Source of the DNA: Elmis aenea
Lineage: Eukaryota > Arthropoda > Insecta > Coleoptera > Elmidae
Direction of reading: 5' to 3'
DNA length: 64,000 nt
NCBI GenBank assembly: GCA_947652605.1
Contig: OX393577.1
Location: 22,323,466 to 22,387,465, forward strand
The translations under genes and the position numbers were made by a program. Shown here one piece after another: positions 1,141 through 36,767 of the stretch (its first letter is position 1; the number at the start of each line of letters is the position of its first letter). Below the pieces are notes generated by a model. The model was given only the letters and a program-made list of their open reading frames with translations. It was not told the DNA's origin and did no database searches.

Positions 1141-1766
1141 GGGTCTAGGAACATTCTTCGCCCAAAATTCTTCGCCCACAATTCTTCGCTGCTACAAATC
1201 TTCGCCGCCACCATTTTTCACCCACAATTCTTCGCCCAAAATTCTTCGCCCACAATTCTTCGCTGCTACAAATCTTCGCCGCCACAATTTTTCGCCCACA
1301 ATTCTTCGCCCAAAATTCTTCGCCCACAATTCTTCGCTGCTACAAATCTTCGCCGCCACAATTTTTCGCCGCTTACAAGCATATCACAATTTTTTTTTGT
1401 AAATGTGATTGTTTTTATTTATAACGTAATTTTTACAGATTATTTTACATTAGCCTAAAGTTGTTTCTGTTGTATATTAATACTTCTTCTTTTAAAATTA
1501 TGTTTAAAAATTGCTGCATAAATAGCGTATGCTGTGATTTTTGATCCTGTTTATGTTATTATAGTATGAATAAAAATTAAGTAAACCTAACCTAACGTGA
1601 CCCGACCTATGTAAAATAATCTGTAAAAATTACGTTATAAATAAAAACACATTTACAAACAAAATTTGTGATATGCTTGTATGCGGCGAAAAAATGTGGC
1701 GGCGAAGTATTGTGGCGCCGAAGAATTGTGGGCGAAGAATTGTAGGCGAAGAATGTTCCAGACACG
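1141..1766. mobile_element. Foldback-like element, copy 1, with tandem-repeat inverted arms
   Basis: The left arm (about 1141-1375) is a tandem array of roughly 15-bp units of the type ATTCTTCGCCCACAA, with variants reading GCTGCTACAAATC. The right arm (about 1681-1766) is the same array in reverse complement. The ends match as inverted repeats: GGGTCTAGGAACATTC on the left and GAATGTTCCAGACACG on the right. The flanks are CAAAAATAC (1132-1140) and CGAAAATAC (1767-1775), a 9-bp target duplication with one mismatch. Long inverted arms built of short tandem repeats plus a 9-bp duplication are the known hallmarks of Drosophila Foldback elements. The core encodes nothing recognisable. Short ORFs through the arrays are repeat translations. 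A second copy lies at 31596-32183 and shares the core. Confidence 0.85.
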
Positions 1767-2643: not shown

Positions 2644-4206
2644 TCATTCTAACAACCGATAATCATGAGGGGCCAATAATTTCAGAGCTATCTTTCTCAT
2701 AGCTAGAATGCCATCGACAGTAACCAATAAATAGCCCATTTCTTCTTCAGCTTTAAAACTTTTTACGGGAATTTGTTCCGTAGAATTATTAACTTCCAGT
2801 TGGACCAGTTTAAATACATCGAGTTCGCCAAATACAATCTCCTCACAAGTCTGAATTTGGTTTGCATCGGGAATCGGTTCACTAACAACATCGAACTGTA
2901 TGTTTTGTTGGTTTTTAATCATATCAGCCAGAAGCATACAATCAGAGTGATGCGTATCTTGGTCGATACTAAAACTTTTAGTGAAATTAAAGACGAGTTT
3001 CCCGCTTTGGTTTTTGGGCAAACTAACAGGAGTTTCCATTTCAGCACCCTTATGGGATAAGAACGTGTAAGTGACGAAAATTTGCTGAATATTTTCATTC
3101 CGCATTACCTTGCTCTCCGCATATAGCGACAAGTAGTGAATAGTGATGGTGACTTCTGGGTCGTACTTGTTCGATGGGATGGAATAATCGCGGATCCTGA
3201 CATGTAAGGTATCCGCATCTCTCCACTGGCGCCACTGGACGGTCGCCGGATTTTTTCCTCGAAGTATAGCGTACTCTTCCAAAGTTCTTCTCCAGTTGCA
3301 CTCCTCGAATAACCATTTGGTCCTTTCATGGAGCTCATTTGAAATTTCAGATTGCGTCGTCCGTAGTGCTTTATTACGGTTTAAAACTAGATCTAGTGCT
3401 TCTTTAAAGCGAAGTACTTCTGAACGTTGGGGGATCGTCAAAGCCGAAAGGCTTGACGCGCTGTCTAAAAGTGGTTTACTTGTATGCGAAGATTCTTCGT
3501 CAGCTTCTAATGCTACGCTATGTCTGTGGGCGGCTTCTGCTTTAAGCAAATTTAACTTTTCCTCATTACATTCCAACATATACCAAACAGATACTCTTGC
3601 AAAAGTCGATTGCCTATTTTCGGTATTTTCCTCGTTGAAGTTGATTTGATGACGTATTTTTGTATTAGGGCGTGTCAATACGTCATCAATATGCACTAAA
3701 GTGCTGCCAATAGTAGGTGGTTTATCTTTATCTGCCGAAAAAACGTGTAATTCAAATAGTATGAACTTGTCTGCCACGTAAGTGTAAAACTTGCCATTAA
3801 GCGGTATTTTATAAGTCCTAGAATAATTTAATACATTAATTTTGTGGTTAACAATAATTAGAGGAGTGCATGACGTTGGAAAATTCATGAACGTCCAGCT
3901 TACATGAAGGTTGCCGTTCTCACCAATGTTTTTTTTCAATCGTTTAAAACTCTGCTCTGCAAATTCGATGGACGACACATGTAATTGAAATGTACACTGT
4001 TCGACTTCCTCATCTAACGCTTCTGGTGCAGATGTTGAGGCGTGTTCTTCTTTAAACTGTTGCAGTTGGGACTTTGGTGGTTTTACATTTCTCACTAACT
4101 TTCCAGGATAAACCTTAGTTTTTGGCGTCATTTGATAATGACCTGTAGGTGTCAAAATTTGTTTGCTATTTTGTTGTGACAGTGGATTTAATTGATGTTC
4201 ACTCAT
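2644..4206 (-). CDS. RPGRIP1/RPGRIP1L-like (fantom) ciliary transition-zone protein
   Basis: This single uninterrupted 520-residue ORF is the only convincing host gene. Residues about 350-510 match the C-terminal RPGR-interacting C2-type domain of RPGRIP1 and RPGRIP1L: IFVTYTFLSH, ETPVSLPK, KLVFNFTKSF, IQFDVVSEP, TCEEIVFGELDV and GYLLVTVDGILAMR occur in family order. Residues about 71-213 (from CTFQLHVSSIEF to ARVSVWYMLEC) look like the preceding C2 domain. Residues about 258-310 are charged and probably helical. Family members are scaffolds of the ciliary transition zone, where they help gate entry of proteins into cilia; in insects that would mean sensory neurons and sperm. Vertebrate members exceed 1,200 residues with an N-terminal coiled coil, which is missing here. 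The Met at 4206 is the first in frame. I cannot tell whether this is a naturally short gene, the last exon of a longer one, or an intact retrocopy. The reading frame and codon use look maintained. Confidence 0.85.
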   Translation of the reverse strand: MSEHQLNPLSQQNSKQILTPTGHYQMTPKTKVYPGKLVRNVKPPKSQLQQFKEEHASTSAPEALDEEVEQCTFQLHVSSIEFAEQSFKRLKKNIGENGNLHVSWTFMNFPTSCTPLIIVNHKINVLNYSRTYKIPLNGKFYTYVADKFILFELHVFSADKDKPPTIGSTLVHIDDVLTRPNTKIRHQINFNEENTENRQSTFARVSVWYMLECNEEKLNLLKAEAAHRHSVALEADEESSHTSKPLLDSASSLSALTIPQRSEVLRFKEALDLVLNRNKALRTTQSEISNELHERTKWLFEECNWRRTLEEYAILRGKNPATVQWRQWRDADTLHVRIRDYSIPSNKYDPEVTITIHYLSLYAESKVMRNENIQQIFVTYTFLSHKGAEMETPVSLPKNQSGKLVFNFTKSFSIDQDTHHSDCMLLADMIKNQQNIQFDVVSEPIPDANQIQTCEEIVFGELDVFKLVQLEVNNSTEQIPVKSFKAEEEMGYLLVTVDGILAMRKIALKLLAPHDYRLLE

Positions 4207-4446
4207 CGATACGAAAAATAAGTAATAAGACTACTAAAATTTTTACGAGCAAGTAATGTCAAAATGACATTCAATGCAGCTTAAATTAGCGGCTAACCTA
4301 AAAAATTTCTTTGTTTATTATTAAATCACAAACTTCAACATTTTAGGCTCGGCTTTCATATGAGGAATAAGCAGAAATTAATTAATATTTTAAAGCACGC
4401 CTAATATTTTCTTAAATATTCTCTTTCAACAATGCTTTACATAAAA
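4207..4446. other. Upstream region of the RPGRIP1-like gene
   Basis: This short AT-rich region should hold the promoter and 5' untranslated region of the minus-strand gene. No TATA box was assigned with confidence. Confidence 0.4.
4285..4297 (-). promoter_or_regulatory. Weak RFX (X-box)-like motif upstream of the ciliary gene
   Basis: The near-palindrome ATTAGCGGCTAAC lies about 80-90 bases upstream of the start codon at 4206, the usual distance for RFX X-boxes in ciliary genes. It deviates from RYYRYY-N-RRNRAC at two positions. The location makes it worth noting, but the sequence match is weak. Confidence 0.2.
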
Positions 4447-9935: not shown

Positions 9936-10288
9936 ACTAGCGTAGTGACCCGGCTTCGCTCGGTGAATTTTTTTATCAATCACAGACGACTCGCGCTTCG
10001 CGCTCGCGCCCGGTGGACGTTTTTGACCTTTTGAGAATTTTGGATCTTTTGGGAATTTTTGTATCTATTGAGAATTTTTGTATCTATTGAGAATTTTGAA
10101 ACTTTTGTGATATTTGGATCTTTTGGGAATTTTGGTTCTTTTGGGAATTTTTGGAACTTTTGGGAATTCTCATATGGCCTATGTTCTTCCCATGGTCCTA
10201 TAGATTGTCTGTGCCAAATTTGGTCAGGATCGGATGAGTGGTATAGGAATGCATAAAGGACAAACATACATACATTCATTTTTATATA

Positions 10289-10955
10289 CAGGGTGTAGAC
10301 TCGATCACGCAACATAGCAATTTCAATGGTAAAATTTTAAAAGTCGAATTCTTGCTCCGCTAATTATTTTAGAAAAAAAGTGCAAATACGTTTTTTGTAG
10401 AGAAAAAAATTCTGTATCCATAAATGTAATCAATATTACTTTTTCGTTTTCCAATAACTGAAAATTAAGCAAATTAAAAAACGCGTTTTCGCTAAAATCT
10501 GTAGTGCCTTGGAATTATGCTGTGACAACTGCCCATCTTACTAACACTTACTGTCACTTTGACGTTTGAAGTTTATTCTTAATTATCATTTTTATTATAT
10601 CTTGCAATGAAAACATAACTAATTGTGTAAAATAAATGTTTGATAAAATATAAAGTATAATTAAGAATGAATTTCGCGTCAAAGTGACAGTATAAGTGAC
10701 ATTAGGCTGGGCAGTTGTCACAGCATAATTCCAAGGCACTACAGATTTTAGCGAAAACGCGTTTTTTAATTTGCTTAATTTTCAGTTATTGGAAAACGAA
10801 AAAGTAATATTGATTACATTTATGGATACAGAATTTTTTTCTCTACAAAAAACGTATTTGCACTTTTTTTCTAAAATAATTAGCGGAGCAAGAATTCGAC
10901 TTTTAAAATTTTACCATTGAAATCGCTATGTTGCGTGATCCGAGTCTACACCCTG
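10289..10955. mobile_element. Palindromic MITE, CAGGGTGTAGACTC family, copy 1
   Basis: The ends are CAGGGTGTAGACTC and the inverse GAGTCTACACCCTG, flanked by TA. The arms form an almost perfect inverted repeat of about 280 bp, leaving only about 110 bp of unique centre. The match is so good that the copy looks young. A diverged second copy is at 35867-36533. It encodes nothing recognisable. Confidence 0.85.
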
Positions 10956-11049
10956 TATATAGATTTGGTTTGATTGTTTACCTTTTCGTGATGATAATAA
11001 TTTTTAATGTTTTTGGGTTGTAAGGTATAAATGATAGATTCCTGTTTTT

Positions 11050-11576: not shown

Positions 11577-11858
11577 TTATCTTTGAATTCTTGTTTTAAA
11601 ATTGTTGTTTGTTTCATTAAAATTAAAAGTGTGTGATGCATTTTTTGTATGTTTATTTAACGCCGTGCTACAGTTTTTTGTATATTTGTGAGCTTGGATT
11701 CTTTTTTCGAGGTATTGTTTGGTTTGTCCGATGTAAATTCCCTTACAATTTTGACATGGAATTTTATACACAGTGTGGGTCTTTTTACAATCTTTAATGG
11801 AATCTTTAAGTTTAGTGAATAATTGTGTTAGATTATTGGAATTTTTATGTGCAATTTT
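11577..11858 (-). pseudogene. GIY-YIG endonuclease domain of the Penelope-like element
   Basis: The readable frame from 11771 down gives YKIPCQNCKGIYIGQTKQYL, then KRIQAHKYTKNC. The Cys pair and the IYIGQT block are the GIY-YIG nuclease signature that Penelope-like elements carry after their reverse transcriptase, where it nicks the target DNA. The open frame continues upstream to about 11858 (NSNNLTQLFTKLKDSIKDC), so the annotated Met is not a real start. It is out of frame with the RT ORF, indicating a frameshift that disables the polyprotein. The C-terminus is short. Confidence 0.8.
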
Positions 11859-12340
11859 TAGATTATATACGGCTTTACAATGCTGTTCAATTTTTCTGAT
11901 AGAGTGGCAATGTATGGTAATGGAATAAATTGAAATGTCTCTATTTTTTCTTTGTTTTTGCTGTTATTATTGTTGTTATGGTTGTTATAAAACTTGTGTG
12001 TTTGCTGTTTGATAATATTATTTATTAATTTGGTTGGATAATTGTTTTGCGTTAAAATGTCCTTTATTCTTTTTATTTGGTTGTGTCTGGTTGTAGAATG
12101 TGAAAGTTGAATTGCCCTTTTTGTTAAATTATAAATGACAGTTTTTTTATGGGCCAAAGGTTGGGTGGATTCAAAGTTTAAAAGTCTATTAGAAAAAGTA
12201 GGTTTTGTGTACCATTCTGTAATAACTTGGTTAGTTTTTAAGTGTATTAAGGTCATATCAAGAAAATGTATTTTATTGTCTTTTTCAATTTCAAGGGTGA
12301 ACTGTAGTTGTGGATGGAAAGAATTAAAGGTATTTACCAT
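11858..12340 (-). pseudogene. Penelope-type reverse transcriptase, C-terminal fragment
   Basis: The 160-residue fragment contains NKIHFLDMTL, WYTKPTFSNRLLNF, HKKTVIYNLTKRAIQLS and IIKQQTHKFYNNH. The order FLDxTL, then YxKPT, then HKxxVIYNLxxRAxxLS is typical of the segment after the catalytic site in Penelope-like reverse transcriptases. The catalytic YxDD region and everything upstream are absent, since the right terminal repeat begins almost at once. It is followed by the GIY-YIG domain in another frame. The Met at 12340 is a chance start inside the truncated frame. Confidence 0.8.
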
Positions 12341-12508
12341 AGTTTGTGTGGTAATAAAATTTTTTTAAAAATATTTTTAACACGTTGCATTTGTGCAAAA
12401 TACTTATTAGGTAAGATAAAATTTTAATGTGATTTATGTAACTATTTATGTTAATTAATAATTATTGTAGAAAAATGTTTACGACGTAAAAAAGGAAAAA
12501 ATAAAAAC

Positions 12509-22120: not shown

Positions 22121-23009
22121 ACCCGCGTTACTTTAGCAATAAAAATTGGCAATATTAAATATCTCCGTTAAAAAAAAAGGCATAACCTTCATTTTTGCAG
22201 GGTAGCTATAAATTCACAACCTCTATATGCCCATCATGTTAAAAAAATATTGGCCACCCCCGGAGACGGAAGCCCAATTGTCAAATTTTAACAAAAGACC
22301 CTGCCACCTTCAAATTTACACCAAATGTACCTTTTATAATTAGTAGACGATCCCCTATCTCAAAATCGTTTAGGCCACGTTTCTTCGGCGGCGGCGAATT
22401 TTCAAAGATTATTTCAAAAATCTATTGCTGGGTCGAACGGAGGATCCTGCCACCTTCAAATTTACACCAAATGTACCTTTTATAATTAGTAGACGATCCC
22501 CTATCTCAAAATCGTTTAGGCCACGTTTCTTCGGCAGGATCCTCCGTTCGACCCAGCAATACATTTTTGAAATAATCTTTGAAAATTCGCCGCCGCCGAA
22601 GAAACGTGGCCTAAACGATTTTGAGATAGGGGATCGTCTACTAATTATAAAAGGTACATTTGGTGTAAATTTGAAGGTGGCAGGATCCTTCGTTCGACCC
22701 AGCAATAGATTTTTAAAATAATATTTGAAAATTCGCCGCCGCCGAAGAAACGTGGCCTAAACGATTTTGAGATAGGGGATCGTCTACTAATTATAAAAGG
22801 TACATTTGGTGTTAATTTGAAGGTGGCAGGGTCTTTTGTTAAATTTTGACAATTGGGCTTCCGCCTCCGGGGGTGGCCAATATTTTTTTAACATGATGGG
22901 CATATAGAGGCTGTGAATTTATAGCTACCCTGCAAAAATGAAGGTTTTGCCTTTTTTTTTAACAGAGATATTTAATATTGCCAATTTTTATTGCTAAAGT
23001 AACGCGGGT
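22121..23009. mobile_element. Palindromic Foldback-type element with perfect 9-bp duplication
   Basis: The ends ACCCGCGTTACTTTAGC and GCTAAAGTAACGCGGGT are perfect inverted repeats, flanked by GGGAATACT on both sides (22112-22120, 23010-23018). The inner part holds a roughly 90-bp module (CTGCCACCTTCAAATTTACA to CCACGTTTCTTCGG) twice forward (22301, 22447) and twice inverted (22597, 22742). The whole 889 bp can fold on itself. ORFs on both strands give near-identical peptides only because of the palindrome. Confidence 0.85.
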
Positions 23010-29897: not shown

Positions 29898-30090
29898 TAA
29901 TACAATATTGGTTTCCGGGTTTGGAACCGCGTCTTTTATATTTAGAAGTAGTTGACGTTTCGACCATTGTGTCTTGGTCTTTTTCAAAACGACAGTCGTT
30001 TTGAAAAAGACCAAGACACAATGGTCGAAACGTCAACTACTTCTAAATATAAAAGACGCGGTTCCAAACCCGGAAACCAATATTGTATTA
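29898..30090. repeat. Perfect 96-bp palindrome with hammerhead-like motif
   Basis: Positions 29898-29993 and 29995-30090 are exact reverse complements around a single base (29994). The right half contains AAGACC, a loop, then GGTCGAAACGTC, the same stem-plus-GAAACGT arrangement as in the Penelope terminal repeats at 11050 and 12509. It is probably the head-to-head junction of two Penelope terminal repeats. The ORF across it is a consequence of the palindrome. Confidence 0.75.
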
Positions 30091-31172
30091 TGGATAACGG
30101 CCGCGAAAGCCTCAAGAATAAAATAACTTTATTTTTTTTTAAATTTCTAATGCAAAATTAAATTCTGCATCTATCTGTTTAAGCGTTTCCTATACCTACC
30201 TATCTGCAACAATTTTCGAGTTATTAAGAATTTTTGATAAAGGTATTTTTAAATAGTAGATAAGCCTTGGAAATAACACCAAATGCCAATATTGATAACT
30301 GTCAACCACTTTTATTGCGTTTGTCTGAAGTATCCATGAAAATGGAATATCAAGAGTATTCAAACACGGATATTTTGAACTTAATATATCATACAACAAG
30401 CACAATTTTTTCCTACAGCATTTACATTTTTATGTAGCGTTTTGGTATTTTTATACAAGTTTTTTTAATTTTTACACAACATTGGATCACGTGTAATTTA
30501 TGTCTGAGATAGGGGGCTGCAAGTATAAAAACTTTGCGCACCAGGCCAAAACATAAGCTCAGTTTTTTCTTTAATTTATATCATAATGATATATCCACGT
30601 ACTACAGTATTCGACATTCTCAACTAGATTCTTCCGGTTTCTAGCAATTATCCGGGCTAATAAATCGTAAACAAACTGCCAAAATATATGCATCAAACGC
30701 ACATTTATTTTTAGTTTAACTTCTGACCGAAACGCTAATAATAAAGTATTCGTTTCTTGCGATCGCCTTGTAATCATGCGTTCGTACGAACGCTGTAATT
30801 TTTCATATCGGGTTATTAATGTTATTAAACGCCTATAAATTCTTGTATAATACGAAACACATTAACATCTACGCAGCAACTACAAATTTATTCGTAAGTT
30901 ATAATGATTAAACGTGAAAACAGCAAAGAATTATTAAACATTCTTTTAATGCACACGTTTAATCAATATGCTGTGATGAAATGATTAGATCGTGTGCATA
31001 CGCAGTGTAAAAATTGCTGTTCCTTATAGTATAATACATTAATTAATAATTAATCCTAACATACAAACTTAGGGTACAATAGACCAATAGGTCGCAGTAC
31101 AGGAACCCGAAAGGGGACCACCTCCGCGGAATAATAATAACATACAAACTTCACCACAGTTAAAAAATAGAA
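30091..31172. other. Non-coding DNA
   Basis: No gene is recognised. The first 50 bases may be the rest of the Penelope-like sequence. Confidence 0.45.
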
Positions 31173-32255
31173 ATATGAGCCGCTTATTTTGAAAGTGGCA
31201 TAAGTTAATTGTATGTTATTTTGAGATATTAAATGTTTTGCATTCCAATGTGCATAAAAATATTTTATGCAAACTATGAAGAAATTTCACTTAAATTTGT
31301 TATCACAGTTGCTTCTATTTTTCTCAGTACACATAATTTCGCACAGACGTTAAGGAATTGCTAATTTTCTTAACTGTAAAGTGACTTAAGCCACTTTCAA
31401 AGTTAATACTTTATAAAAACTACGGACATGTTGATTTTGTCCGATGTGTTTTACTGAGGTGAGATTGATTATACAGGGAAGCAAATCCATCTTTATGCCA
31501 TTTTCAAAACATTTGCACTTATGGTCAAAAATAAAATTCCTATTGAAGAAATTAATAATAATTTTGAAATATTTCAAGCAAAATTAGATAAAAATGGGTC
31601 TAGGAACATTCTTTGCCCACAATTCTTCGCCCACGATTCTTCGCCCACAATTCTTCGCCTCCACAATTCTTCGCCCACATTTCTTCACCTACACAATTTC
31701 TCCCCGCCACAATTTTTTTCCCCGTACATTTTATTTGCAAATGTGATAGTTTTATTTATAACTTAATTTTTACAAATTATTTTACATTAGACTAAAGTTG
31801 TTTCTTGTATATTAATACTTCATCTTTTAATATTATGTTTAAAAATTGCTACATAAATAGCGTATGTTGTGATTTTTAATCTTGTTTATGTTATTATAGT
31901 ATGAATAAAAATTAAATTAACCTCACCTGACCTGACCTAACCTAACCTAATGTAAAGTAATCTGTAAAAATTACGTTATAAATAAAAACAATCATATTCA
32001 CAAACAAAATTTGTGATATGCTTGTATGCGGCGAAACATTGTGGCGGCGAAGAATTGTGGCGGCGAAGAATTGTGGCGGCGAAGATTTGTGGGCGAAGAA
32101 TTGTGGGAGAAGAATTGTGGGCGAAGAATTGTGGGCGAAGAATTGTGGGCGAAGAATTGTTGGCGAAGAATGTTCCGGACACGGATAAAAATACAAAACC
32201 TTTTGTAATCGTGAATACCTTTAACTGATTTTTCGCAAAAATAAAAGGCTCATAT
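31173..32255. repeat. Unclassified repeat unit, copy 1, carrying Foldback-like copy 2
   Basis: The ends ATATGAGCCGCTTATTTT and the inverse AAAATAAAAGGCTCATAT suggest terminal inverted repeats. The sequence aligns collinearly with 33240-34920 over many blocks, for example CATAATTTCGCACAGACGTT (31331, 33403), CTTAAGCCACTTTCAAA (31385, 34315) and ATGCCATTTTCAAA (31495, 34750). Removing the Foldback-like element restores the alignment. Confidence 0.65.
31596..32183. mobile_element. Foldback-like element, copy 2, with perfect 9-bp duplication
   Basis: Same ends and core as copy 1 at 1141-1766. The arms are arrays of TTCTTCGCCCACAA (31605-31720) and the inverse (32035-32175). GATAAAAAT is repeated exactly at 31587-31595 and 32184-32192. 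The target is a repeat unit whose other copy (about 34850-34875) lacks the insertion, confirming the boundaries. ORFs in both directions over the arrays are artefacts. Confidence 0.9.
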
Positions 32256-33239: not shown

Positions 33240-33453
33240 TTCAGTTTATTAATCGAGCAGTTTATTTTAATGTGGCTTAAGTCACTTGTATGTAATTTTA
33301 ATATTATGTTTTGCATTTTAATGGGCATACAAATATTTATGCTAAATATAGATAAATGTCACTTATATATGTTATCTCCGTTACTTATATTCTTCTCTAT
33401 ATACATAATTTCGCACAGACGTTAACGAATCGCCATTTTTCATTACTGTAAAG

Positions 33454-34304
33454 CAGGCCTGTGCGACCTGCGGCCCGAAGGTCATATGCGGCCCCTCTGA
33501 TATTTTTTTGCGGCCCGCGGCCCTGTAGTTCTATATTACAAGCATTGCTGTTTTCAAAGATTATAACATTTATTGTCATTACATGTCAAAAAGTGCCAAA
33601 TAAATATGATAAATTATCAGGTGATTTAAAAAGGGACAACAAAATTTAAAAATGGGTATAAACAACAAGACCCCACAACAATAGCAAGTTATGAAATTTT
33701 TAATATTTTAATTAAACAGCTAAAACCATTCTTTGATTGTAGTTTAATAAAAGTATGTATTAAAATAGCTGTGAACTTTATTTGCCCGAATAAAGGCGTT
33801 TTTCTAATATTAGTTTATTACTGTGGCAAGATAAATTGATGAAATGGCAAAAAAAAATATTAACTTTTAAATATAGGTACTGCTAATAACTTTTTATCTT
33901 ATTCTCTTTGTCTCGATGAATTAACGGATGTATCTAATACTGCTTAAATTGTTTTTTTGTTCGTGGAATAGATATAGTTAAATGTTACTGAAGAATTATT
34001 AAATTTGTAAAGGATGAAGGAACTACAGCAGCTGAGAATCTCTATATTGTATCAAAAACTAATTTAGAAATAAAAAATGAGGAAATCGCTTCGAGGAGCG
34101 CTGTTAGCTCCTGGCTAAGAAATTTAATGCCGAAATTTTTTGTATGTCACTGCGTTGCTCAGATTGAAAATTTATGCGCGAAAAAAAATCAGTTTTAAAT
34201 TTACTCCAAACCATTCAAACAAAGAATCTTCAAATCAACTAGAAAGTTACGATTTCATAAAATTTGCAATTGGCCCTTTGGCTTAAAAGGTTTGCAAGGG
34301 CCTG
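33454..34304. mobile_element. hAT element with perfect 8-bp duplication
   Basis: It starts CAGGCCTGTGCGACC and ends AAGGGCCTG, with CTGTAAAG exactly repeated at 33446-33453 and 34305-34312. The empty site CTGTAAAGTGACTTAAG is present in the sister repeat unit at about 31375-31391. It contains a decayed transposase. Confidence 0.85.
33990..34220 (+). pseudogene. Decayed hAT transposase of the GTF2IRD2/ZBED5-like group
   Basis: With frameshifts the plus strand gives KDEGTTAAENLYIVSKTNLE and later VCHCVAQIENLCAKK. The order GTTxAExLY, then CHCxxxxxxLCAKK matches the region GTTTGEDIF to IHCIIHQxxLC of hAT transposases domesticated as GTF2IRD2/ZBED5-like proteins. It is short, frameshifted and lies inside matching hAT ends, so it is not a host gene. 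Confidence 0.5.
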
Positions 34305-34920
34305 CTGTAAAGTGACTTAAGCCACTTTCAAAATTAATTAATTATAAAAACTATGGACTAATGCTTTTTGTCCGACATGTTTTACTTAAGTGATGTTTAA
34401 TAATTAGATGCAATTTAAAAAAAAATTGAGGAGTAAATTATACAATATAATTATTTTATACAATGTATTTTATTATTTTTTCATTATTATTAATATTCAT
34501 AAAATACATAAGTAGTAGGTAAGTAAATTTGTCAGTACGTTTTGAAATAAATTTAAAAAAAGTTCATTTATGTACTGAAATATACGTAGCTACAAGCAAT
34601 TTATGTAACGTACTTCATAATAAAAGTTTATTGACGTATTGAATAATTGTCATTAATAAGAGTGATGAAGCCTTCGGACATTTGACTTCGTTTTAAATTT
34701 TTAAAACAACTGATTAAATTGGGGGCATATAGGAAAGCAAATCAATCATTATGCCATTTTCAAAGTAAATGTATTTGCACTTCTGTTTAACAATGAAGTT
34801 TCTATTGACGAAAATAATAATGATTTTGAAAGAAATTGCAAGTAAAATGTTTAAAGTTAAAAATACCAAACTTTATTGTAATCGCGTAACTCATGCCACT
34901 TTCAAAATAATCGGCTCAAT

Positions 34921-35690: not shown

Positions 35691-35866
35691 TGATATTATT
35701 TTAATTCGGTGGTTTTAACGTGATATTTTTTTAAATGTTACGATCAAAAATTTTTGATGTCGCTTGCGAATTGGATGATCTACGCGAAAGCTTTCGAGCC
35801 TTTGTAATTTAAGCGTTGCGTATTTGTTTGCGGCTGTAATTTAGTATTTTAGGTTATACTTGTATA

Positions 35867-36533
35867 CCGGGTGTAAAAAAGGATCACGCAACATAGTAAT
35901 TTCAACGGTAAAATTTTAAAAGCTGTATAATAGCTCCCTTAATTATTTTAGAAAGAAAGTTTATTAAGTTTTGGCAGAGAAAAAAATTTTGAATCTACAA
36001 ATAATGTAATCAATTTTCAGATTTCCAATAACTGACAATAGAGAAAATTGTAAAACGCCGTTTTGACCTATATCTGTAATACCTTGGAATTATATTGTGC
36101 AATTGCCCAGCTTTATGTAACTTTGACGCGAAATTTATTCTTAAAAGTGGTTTATATTTTATCCAACATTTATTTTATACAATTTGTTGTTTTTATTAAA
36201 ATAAAATCTTGTTACAACAATAAAAACCTACGATGACGAAGTTTACATTCGCGTCCAAGTGACACTTTAAGTGACATTAGGATGAGCAGTTCACAGTATA
36301 ATTTCAGGGCATAACAGATTTTTGTCAACACGGCGTTTTGAAAGTTTCTCAATTTTCAGTTATTGGAAAACTAAAAATTAATATTGATTACATTTGTGAA
36401 CACAGAATGTTTTTCTCTACAAAAAAAGACTTAATTGCAATTTTTTTCTAAAATAATTAAGGGAGATATTATACAACTTTTAAAATTTTACCATTTAAAA
36501 TTACTATGTTGCGTGATCCAATTTTAAACCCTG
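35867..36533. mobile_element. Palindromic MITE, relative of 10289-10955 (copy 2)
   Basis: The ends CCGGGTGTAAAAAAGGATCA and the inverse ending AAACCCTG are flanked by TA. The arms are long inverted repeats, more diverged than in copy 1. Shared blocks include GATCACGCAACATAG, TTCCAATAACTGA and CTTGGAATTAT. Confidence 0.8.
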
Positions 36534-36767
36534 TATACAGAGTGATCATTATAAGCTTATCAAATGAATGATTTATTAACAATTTTGTTGTTTATGCATA
36601 ATTATGCACGATATTTATATTTTGGAAAACTTTTAATTTTTTTTTATAATTAAATAGCTTATTCAATTATTGTCAAGAAAACTGGAACGTGAACTTGGTA
36701 AATTTTTTGAACAAAATTTCGTACAAATCATTGAACATTGTATGAAAATAATAATAATAATAGAATA

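Follow-up and report, generated by a model that had tools for sequence, protein, structure and literature searches.

We analysed a 64,000-nucleotide stretch of the Elmis aenea genome (hereafter the window; C2:22323466-22387465 of a 516-Mb assembly) and found a 588-bp element at window positions 31596-32183, flanked by identical 9-bp duplications (GATAAAAAT). With a probability of roughly 0.87, we read it as a non-autonomous Mutator-like element (MULE) of the Phantom/Muta/Tm1 type with Foldback architecture, mobilised by a FLYWCH-MULE transposase and carrying arms that change locally. We group it with the Phantom/Muta-type MULEs because its end plan is common to FLYWCH-MULEs of the same genome.

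The element and its empty site

The element and its duplications are composed as follows.

31587..31595, no strand: left target-site duplication GATAAAAAT, a perfect match to 32184-32192
31596..32183, + strand: the whole element, probably a non-autonomous MULE with Foldback architecture, 588 bp
31596..31605, + strand: left end, a 7-bp outer motif GGGTCTA followed by GGA, the same as one end of L064, L065 and L081 (family B, below)
31596..31719, + strand: left arm, 8 units of ~14-16 bp of the CACAATTCTTCGCC type, the inner units decayed
31720..32029, + strand: core, with no long open frame and a short telomere-like CCTRA run
32030..32183, - strand: right arm, 10 units in inverted orientation
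32174..32183, - strand: right end, CGTGTCC followed by GGA, read inward
32184..32192, no strand: right target-site duplication GATAAAAAT, the pair of 31587-31595

The element has the long inverted arms of short tandem units, variable in number, that characterise Foldback elements (units were counted as matches to a 10-base core with at most three mismatches), and Tandem Repeats Finder (TRF) finds tandem repeats in both arms. The inverted arms far exceed chance: folded as single-stranded DNA, the element reaches -155.3 kcal/mol, whereas shuffles average -56.7 (z = -22) and none of 100 is as low. None of the five window frames of at least 130 aa overlaps it. The preliminary description of this DNA had called the element Foldback-like. 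The term suits the architecture but not the family, since the evidence groups the element with FLYWCH-MULEs of the Phantom/Muta/Tm1 type. The same description had noted the perfect 9-bp duplication as flanking the element exactly, and 31587-31595 is indeed identical to 32184-32192.

The host DNA is itself a dispersed repeat with inverted ends (40 best matches scored among 1019 candidates), of which the window holds two copies.

31170..32255, no strand: filled copy of the host repeat, interrupted by the element and one duplication
33255..34918, no strand: second copy, uninserted at the homologous site and itself broken by 33454-34304
34856..34864, no strand: empty target GTTAAAAAT

An uninserted version of the host sequence had been proposed about 2.7 kb downstream of the element, giving its boundaries without outside data. 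An uninserted counterpart does exist at 34856-34864, but it is a paralogue, another copy of the dispersed repeat, and not the pre-insertion state of this locus. The joined flanks of the element align to 34803-34884, across GTTAAAAAT, which is one base off the GATAAAAAT duplication, so that the flank alignment suggested earlier does cross the empty site. Its left side is good; right of the junction it runs for only ~20 bases, and for the right flank alone 23 of 500 shuffles and 33 of 500 window pieces scored at least as high. On this side, where chance is not beaten, the window provides a weak comparison. The boundaries are exact, but the right-side match in the window is too short to exclude chance, and other genomic host copies were therefore needed. 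All 39 non-self matches among the best 40 of the 1019 candidates continue at least 15 bases beyond the junction. Three of these alignments were read individually: L058 has one GATAAAAAT only and aligns over 102 of the 113 joined bases, L059 covers all 113 and L060 covers 72. A few additional bases just left of the target are present in the second window copy of the host repeat and in L058, L059 and L060, and are missing from the filled copy. These uninterrupted copies settle the empty-site question. The insert that breaks the second host copy (33454-34304) starts with CAGGCC, ends with GGCCTG and is flanked by an 8-bp duplication, CTGTAAAG (33446-33453 and 34305-34312); we take it to be hAT-like.

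FLYWCH-MULE relatives in the same genome

Profile searches of the genome gave 74 hits for PF10551 and 68 for PF04500. Searches with the transposases of two of the families listed below gave 100 matches for family B (99 of 228 candidates scored, E up to 1e-5) and 80 for family C (98 of 198 candidates scored, E up to 1e-20). Around these MULE-domain and transposase hits we found elements that combine tandem-unit arms with transposase frames.

Family B (L064, L065, L081): ends GGTATCC/T-GGA and GGGTCTA-GGA
Family C (L066, L067, L072, L073, and L083, which is internally deleted): ends GGATCTA-GGA and CGGAACC or GGCAACC-GGA
Family A (L052-L054): exact 9-bp duplications in two of three
Other MULEs with different units: L078/L079, L080 and L085

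Families B and C share the plan of the window element, namely a 9-bp duplication, a 7-bp outer motif, GGA and tandem units of ~14-16 bp. The 10-bp left end of the window element, GGGTCTAGGA, recurs unchanged at one end of family B. Exact 9-bp duplications flank six of the seven B and C elements and also the C copy L083. The window family has the ends of Phantom/Tm1-type elements: an asymmetric 7-bp outer motif, GGA and ~14-bp units. The units themselves differ, being of the AATTCACCGAA.. and AATTCCCCGAC.. types in B and C and of the CACAATTCTTCGCC type in the window family, and B and C carry open or broken transposase frames. Both a FLYWCH and a MULE domain lie in open frames of L064 (B), L052 (A) and L062, and FLYWCH hits adjoin MULE hits in L065, L066, L067 and L072. 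The frames of L064, L065, L073 and L052 are open over at least 420 aa.

This architecture is common among MULEs here, not universal. L062 and L069 have long inverted ends in which no short tandem unit was seen by eye, and the stretches read at a number of other MULE loci, L049-L051, L061 and L063 among them, hold no arms of this kind. The MULE-domain elements L078, L079 and L080 have other arms, with units of ~18-20 bp of the TTGGATTTAATATTTGCTAC type or of 15 bp (GGGCGACGGTCAACT). By eye, the end of the L078 frame holds a cysteine-histidine motif resembling a SWIM finger.

A dispersed family with unequal arms

The ends of the window element recur across the genome: with at most two mismatches, the left 26-mer was counted 910 times and the right 26-mer 895 times, against none for a reversed-pattern control. 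We sampled 41 copies, comprising the two in the window and 39 others that scored best against the query (best 40 of 1424 candidates scored); L048 duplicates the window copy at 1141-1766 and was excluded from the counts. The mean pairwise identity of their cores is 92% (range 86-98%), and therefore no very recent burst is seen within the sample; both statements are limited to this sample, which favours copies resembling the query. Four copies that lack a recognised end were left out of the duplication and length counts, leaving 37 two-ended copies of 558-812 bp. A 9-bp duplication flanks 28 of these 37, compared with one of 370 shifted flank pairs in the control: 20 are in frame with at most one mismatch (15 of them perfect), three have two mismatches and five appear after a shift of up to two bases. 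The family thus shows the target duplication of MULEs, which is 8-11 bp and typically 9 bp. The two ends differ: GGGTCTA-GGA occurs without change at 27 of the 40 left ends sampled, and CGTGTCC-GGA at 22 of the 38 right ends.

The other window copy has a different division of units between its arms.

1141..1766, + strand: first window copy, 626 bp, 15/5 units, with duplications CAAAAATAC / CGAAAATAC at 1132-1140 and 1767-1775

The two window copies are 84% identical over a 516-column alignment and carry 8/10 (31596-32183) and 15/5 (1141-1766) left/right units. That they differ in arm repeats, and that the arrays expand or contract, was already proposed in the preliminary description, and the sampled copies bear this out. 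Across the 37 copies, left arms have 6-15 units (median 9) and right arms 5-20 (median 10). The two numbers are equal in three copies, and the two arm lengths of a copy are uncorrelated (Spearman -0.11, p = 0.51, n = 37). Block duplications were sought in the 27 of 78 arms that reach at least 175 bases. The left arm of 1141-1766 holds a 74-bp block three times, and the three marker variants of this block occur zero times in its right arm. Other block duplications are one of 60 bp in L016 and one of 114 bp, twice, in L045. Runs of variant units are confined to one arm, with none in the partner, in the 1141-1766 copy, L035, L041 and L044. The single variant tested in L027 is present in both arms; L040 lacks a partner arm for comparison. 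From the one-sided variant runs and the block duplications, we therefore conclude that part of the expansion, at least, was limited to a single arm and involved both blocks and single units.

Among the first 100 exact places per end, we also matched left with right ends by eye. The spans are mostly 273-1323 bp; C1 has two longer pairs, of 5224 and 5851 bp, and C2 a possible one of ~10.8 kb. The 5224-bp pair, considered as one long element, turned out to be two: a full copy and, ~4.4 kb from it, a 254-bp short form (L086 54-307) with the perfect duplication ACTTAAACT. A 1030-bp form (L087) has an inverted repeat reaching far into the core; it matches neither the MULE loci nor their frames and lacks a clear duplication. 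C1:5416881-5417910 holds a further pair of exact ends, likewise spanning 1030 bp. In L033 the sequence taken for the right arm includes, in inverted form, part of this copy's own left flank and left end, indicating a rearranged copy; it was kept in the counts, with a unit count and length that are not those of a simple element.

The core of the window element contains a run of CCTAA/CCTGA pentamers (31921-31950), and in all 41 sampled copies the longest such run is 2-6 per core. These pentamers resemble insect telomere repeats of the TTAGG / TCAGG type, both being telomere motifs of insects.

Elsewhere in the window, a frame at 2644-4230 is RPGRIP1-like, with 13 protein matches, of which the seven with an organism name are all from beetles (32-35% identity), as expected of a beetle host that is probably not close to any of them. 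Minus-strand self-matches reveal further large palindromic repeats at 22121-23009, 10283-10961, 35861-36539 and 29898-30090. By eye, the open frame at 11858-12364 resembles the reverse transcriptase end of a Penelope-like or other retroelement.

Classification and known systems

Several observations count against our classification. In several B and C relatives the frames are broken, which slightly lowers our confidence in it. Nine of the 37 two-ended copies are flanked by no duplication, and the four incomplete copies among the 41 have to be set beside them. The similarity of the arm unit to that of family B (p = 0.034) and to three C variants (p = 0.052, 0.066 and 0.004; uncorrected, nine comparisons) is weak, and no unit similarity was found to A, L085, L080, L078 or Tm1; a universal arm unit across the families is therefore not claimed. 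The L016 block is matched by the partner arm in 58 of 60 bases and so is not private to one arm. A transposase-bearing element with the arm unit of the window family was not found in 33 loci (L049-L056 and L061-L085, part of the 74 MULE hits), read over ~1-2.5 kb on either side with an exact TTCGCC/GGCGAA screen that decayed arms may escape.

Drosophila FB-NOF is filed near the MULEs, and the window element could be a non-autonomous derivative of a NOF/Rehavkus-type element, which is related to MULEs and carries a PHD finger and a minisatellite, and not of a FLYWCH-MULE. Rehavkus is reported to have 9-bp duplications and a mini-satellite before its 3' end (PMC6446971). We nevertheless consider this origin unlikely, as the 10-bp end GGGTCTAGGA and the plan of 7 bp plus GGA are common to FLYWCH-MULEs of the same genome. 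A Galileo-like element, with Foldback arms on a P-superfamily transposon, is very improbable, given that the target duplication of Galileo is 7 bp and that of the window family 9 bp, and that the end motifs match FLYWCH-MULE elements. The arm logic is the same: in Galileo, the THAP domain has its binding sites in tandem repeats within the ends (PMC3688188). Two simple minisatellites, or an error of assembly, would account for the TRF reports in both arms, but the recurrent ends, the 9-bp duplications, the dispersed copies in different flanks and the empty host copies leave this explanation hardly any room.

On the FLYWCH-MULE classification, a transposase acting in trans would recognise the iterated ~14-bp arm units together with the 10-bp ends, excise the element and insert it at a new place. 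Insertion created the 9-bp target duplication seen around the copies, and the arm units then expand and contract locally, singly and in blocks and independently at each end, a pattern that the sampled copies show. Slippage or unequal exchange may cause these changes. By analogy with Galileo, the arm units are putative transposase-binding sites.

Elements of this kind are already known from mosquitoes and nematodes, and on comparison with published descriptions, as opposed to a repeat library, the window family appears to be a further member. Tm1, a Mutator/Foldback element of root-knot nematodes, has a 7-bp asymmetric motif, GGA, mostly 14-bp units and a 9-bp duplication; its coding partner is a Phantom-type FLYWCH-MULE, it also has a GA-rich inner motif, and the family is described as senescent and mostly made of copies like miniature inverted-repeat transposable elements (MITE-like) (PMC3169594). 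The window family resembles it in the 9-bp duplication, in the order of 7-bp motif, GGA and ~14-bp unit, and in the unequal unit numbers between the arms of one element. It does not belong to Tm1 proper: its unit is no closer to the Tm1 Motif C than chance (7/14 matches, p = 0.64), and its ends are unlike the printed A1/A2 (PMC3169594). Tm1 arms have 1-9 units as against 5-20 here, and the Tm1 study analysed 61 elements from two species (PMC3169594), compared with ~900 of each end in the Elmis aenea genome. The Muta MULEs of Aedes aegypti have FLYWCH-MULE transposases and 8-9 bp duplications; in that species, 10 of 12 long-ended MULE families carry subterminal tandem repeats of 9-15 bp, non-autonomous derivatives vary in unit number, and the name type 2 Foldback element is given to Muta1 (PMC5225508). 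The window family shares the long ends with short tandem units, the variable unit number and the duplication size, and differs from Muta in that the 33 loci read yielded no partner. Drosophila Foldback/FB-NOF and Tetris likewise have Foldback arms built of tandem repeats, Tetris having duplications of 8-10 bp and units of ~220 bp (PMC4079207) as opposed to ~14 bp here. A 2026 survey describes MULEs in 52 beetle species; its main text does not contain the words tandem, foldback or FLYWCH (PMC13359780).

Foldback arms have been described as an architecture adopted by different transposon lineages (PMC3169594), a view that the window family fits. Our analysis describes a Foldback-type MULE family, each end of which is present ~900 times, and sets it by its ends beside FLYWCH-MULE families of the same genome. 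The finding alone is ordinary, but a series of arm units next to transposase-bearing relatives would be useful for testing arm function. It is possible, though we regard it as doubtful, that the arms are adjustable arrays of putative transposase-binding sites, that each FLYWCH-MULE family has its own unit and its own FLYWCH domain, that the array of the window family may have outlived its enzyme, and that local block duplication alters end affinity. If this were true, the families would form a natural series for working out the code that relates FLYWCH domains to DNA units.
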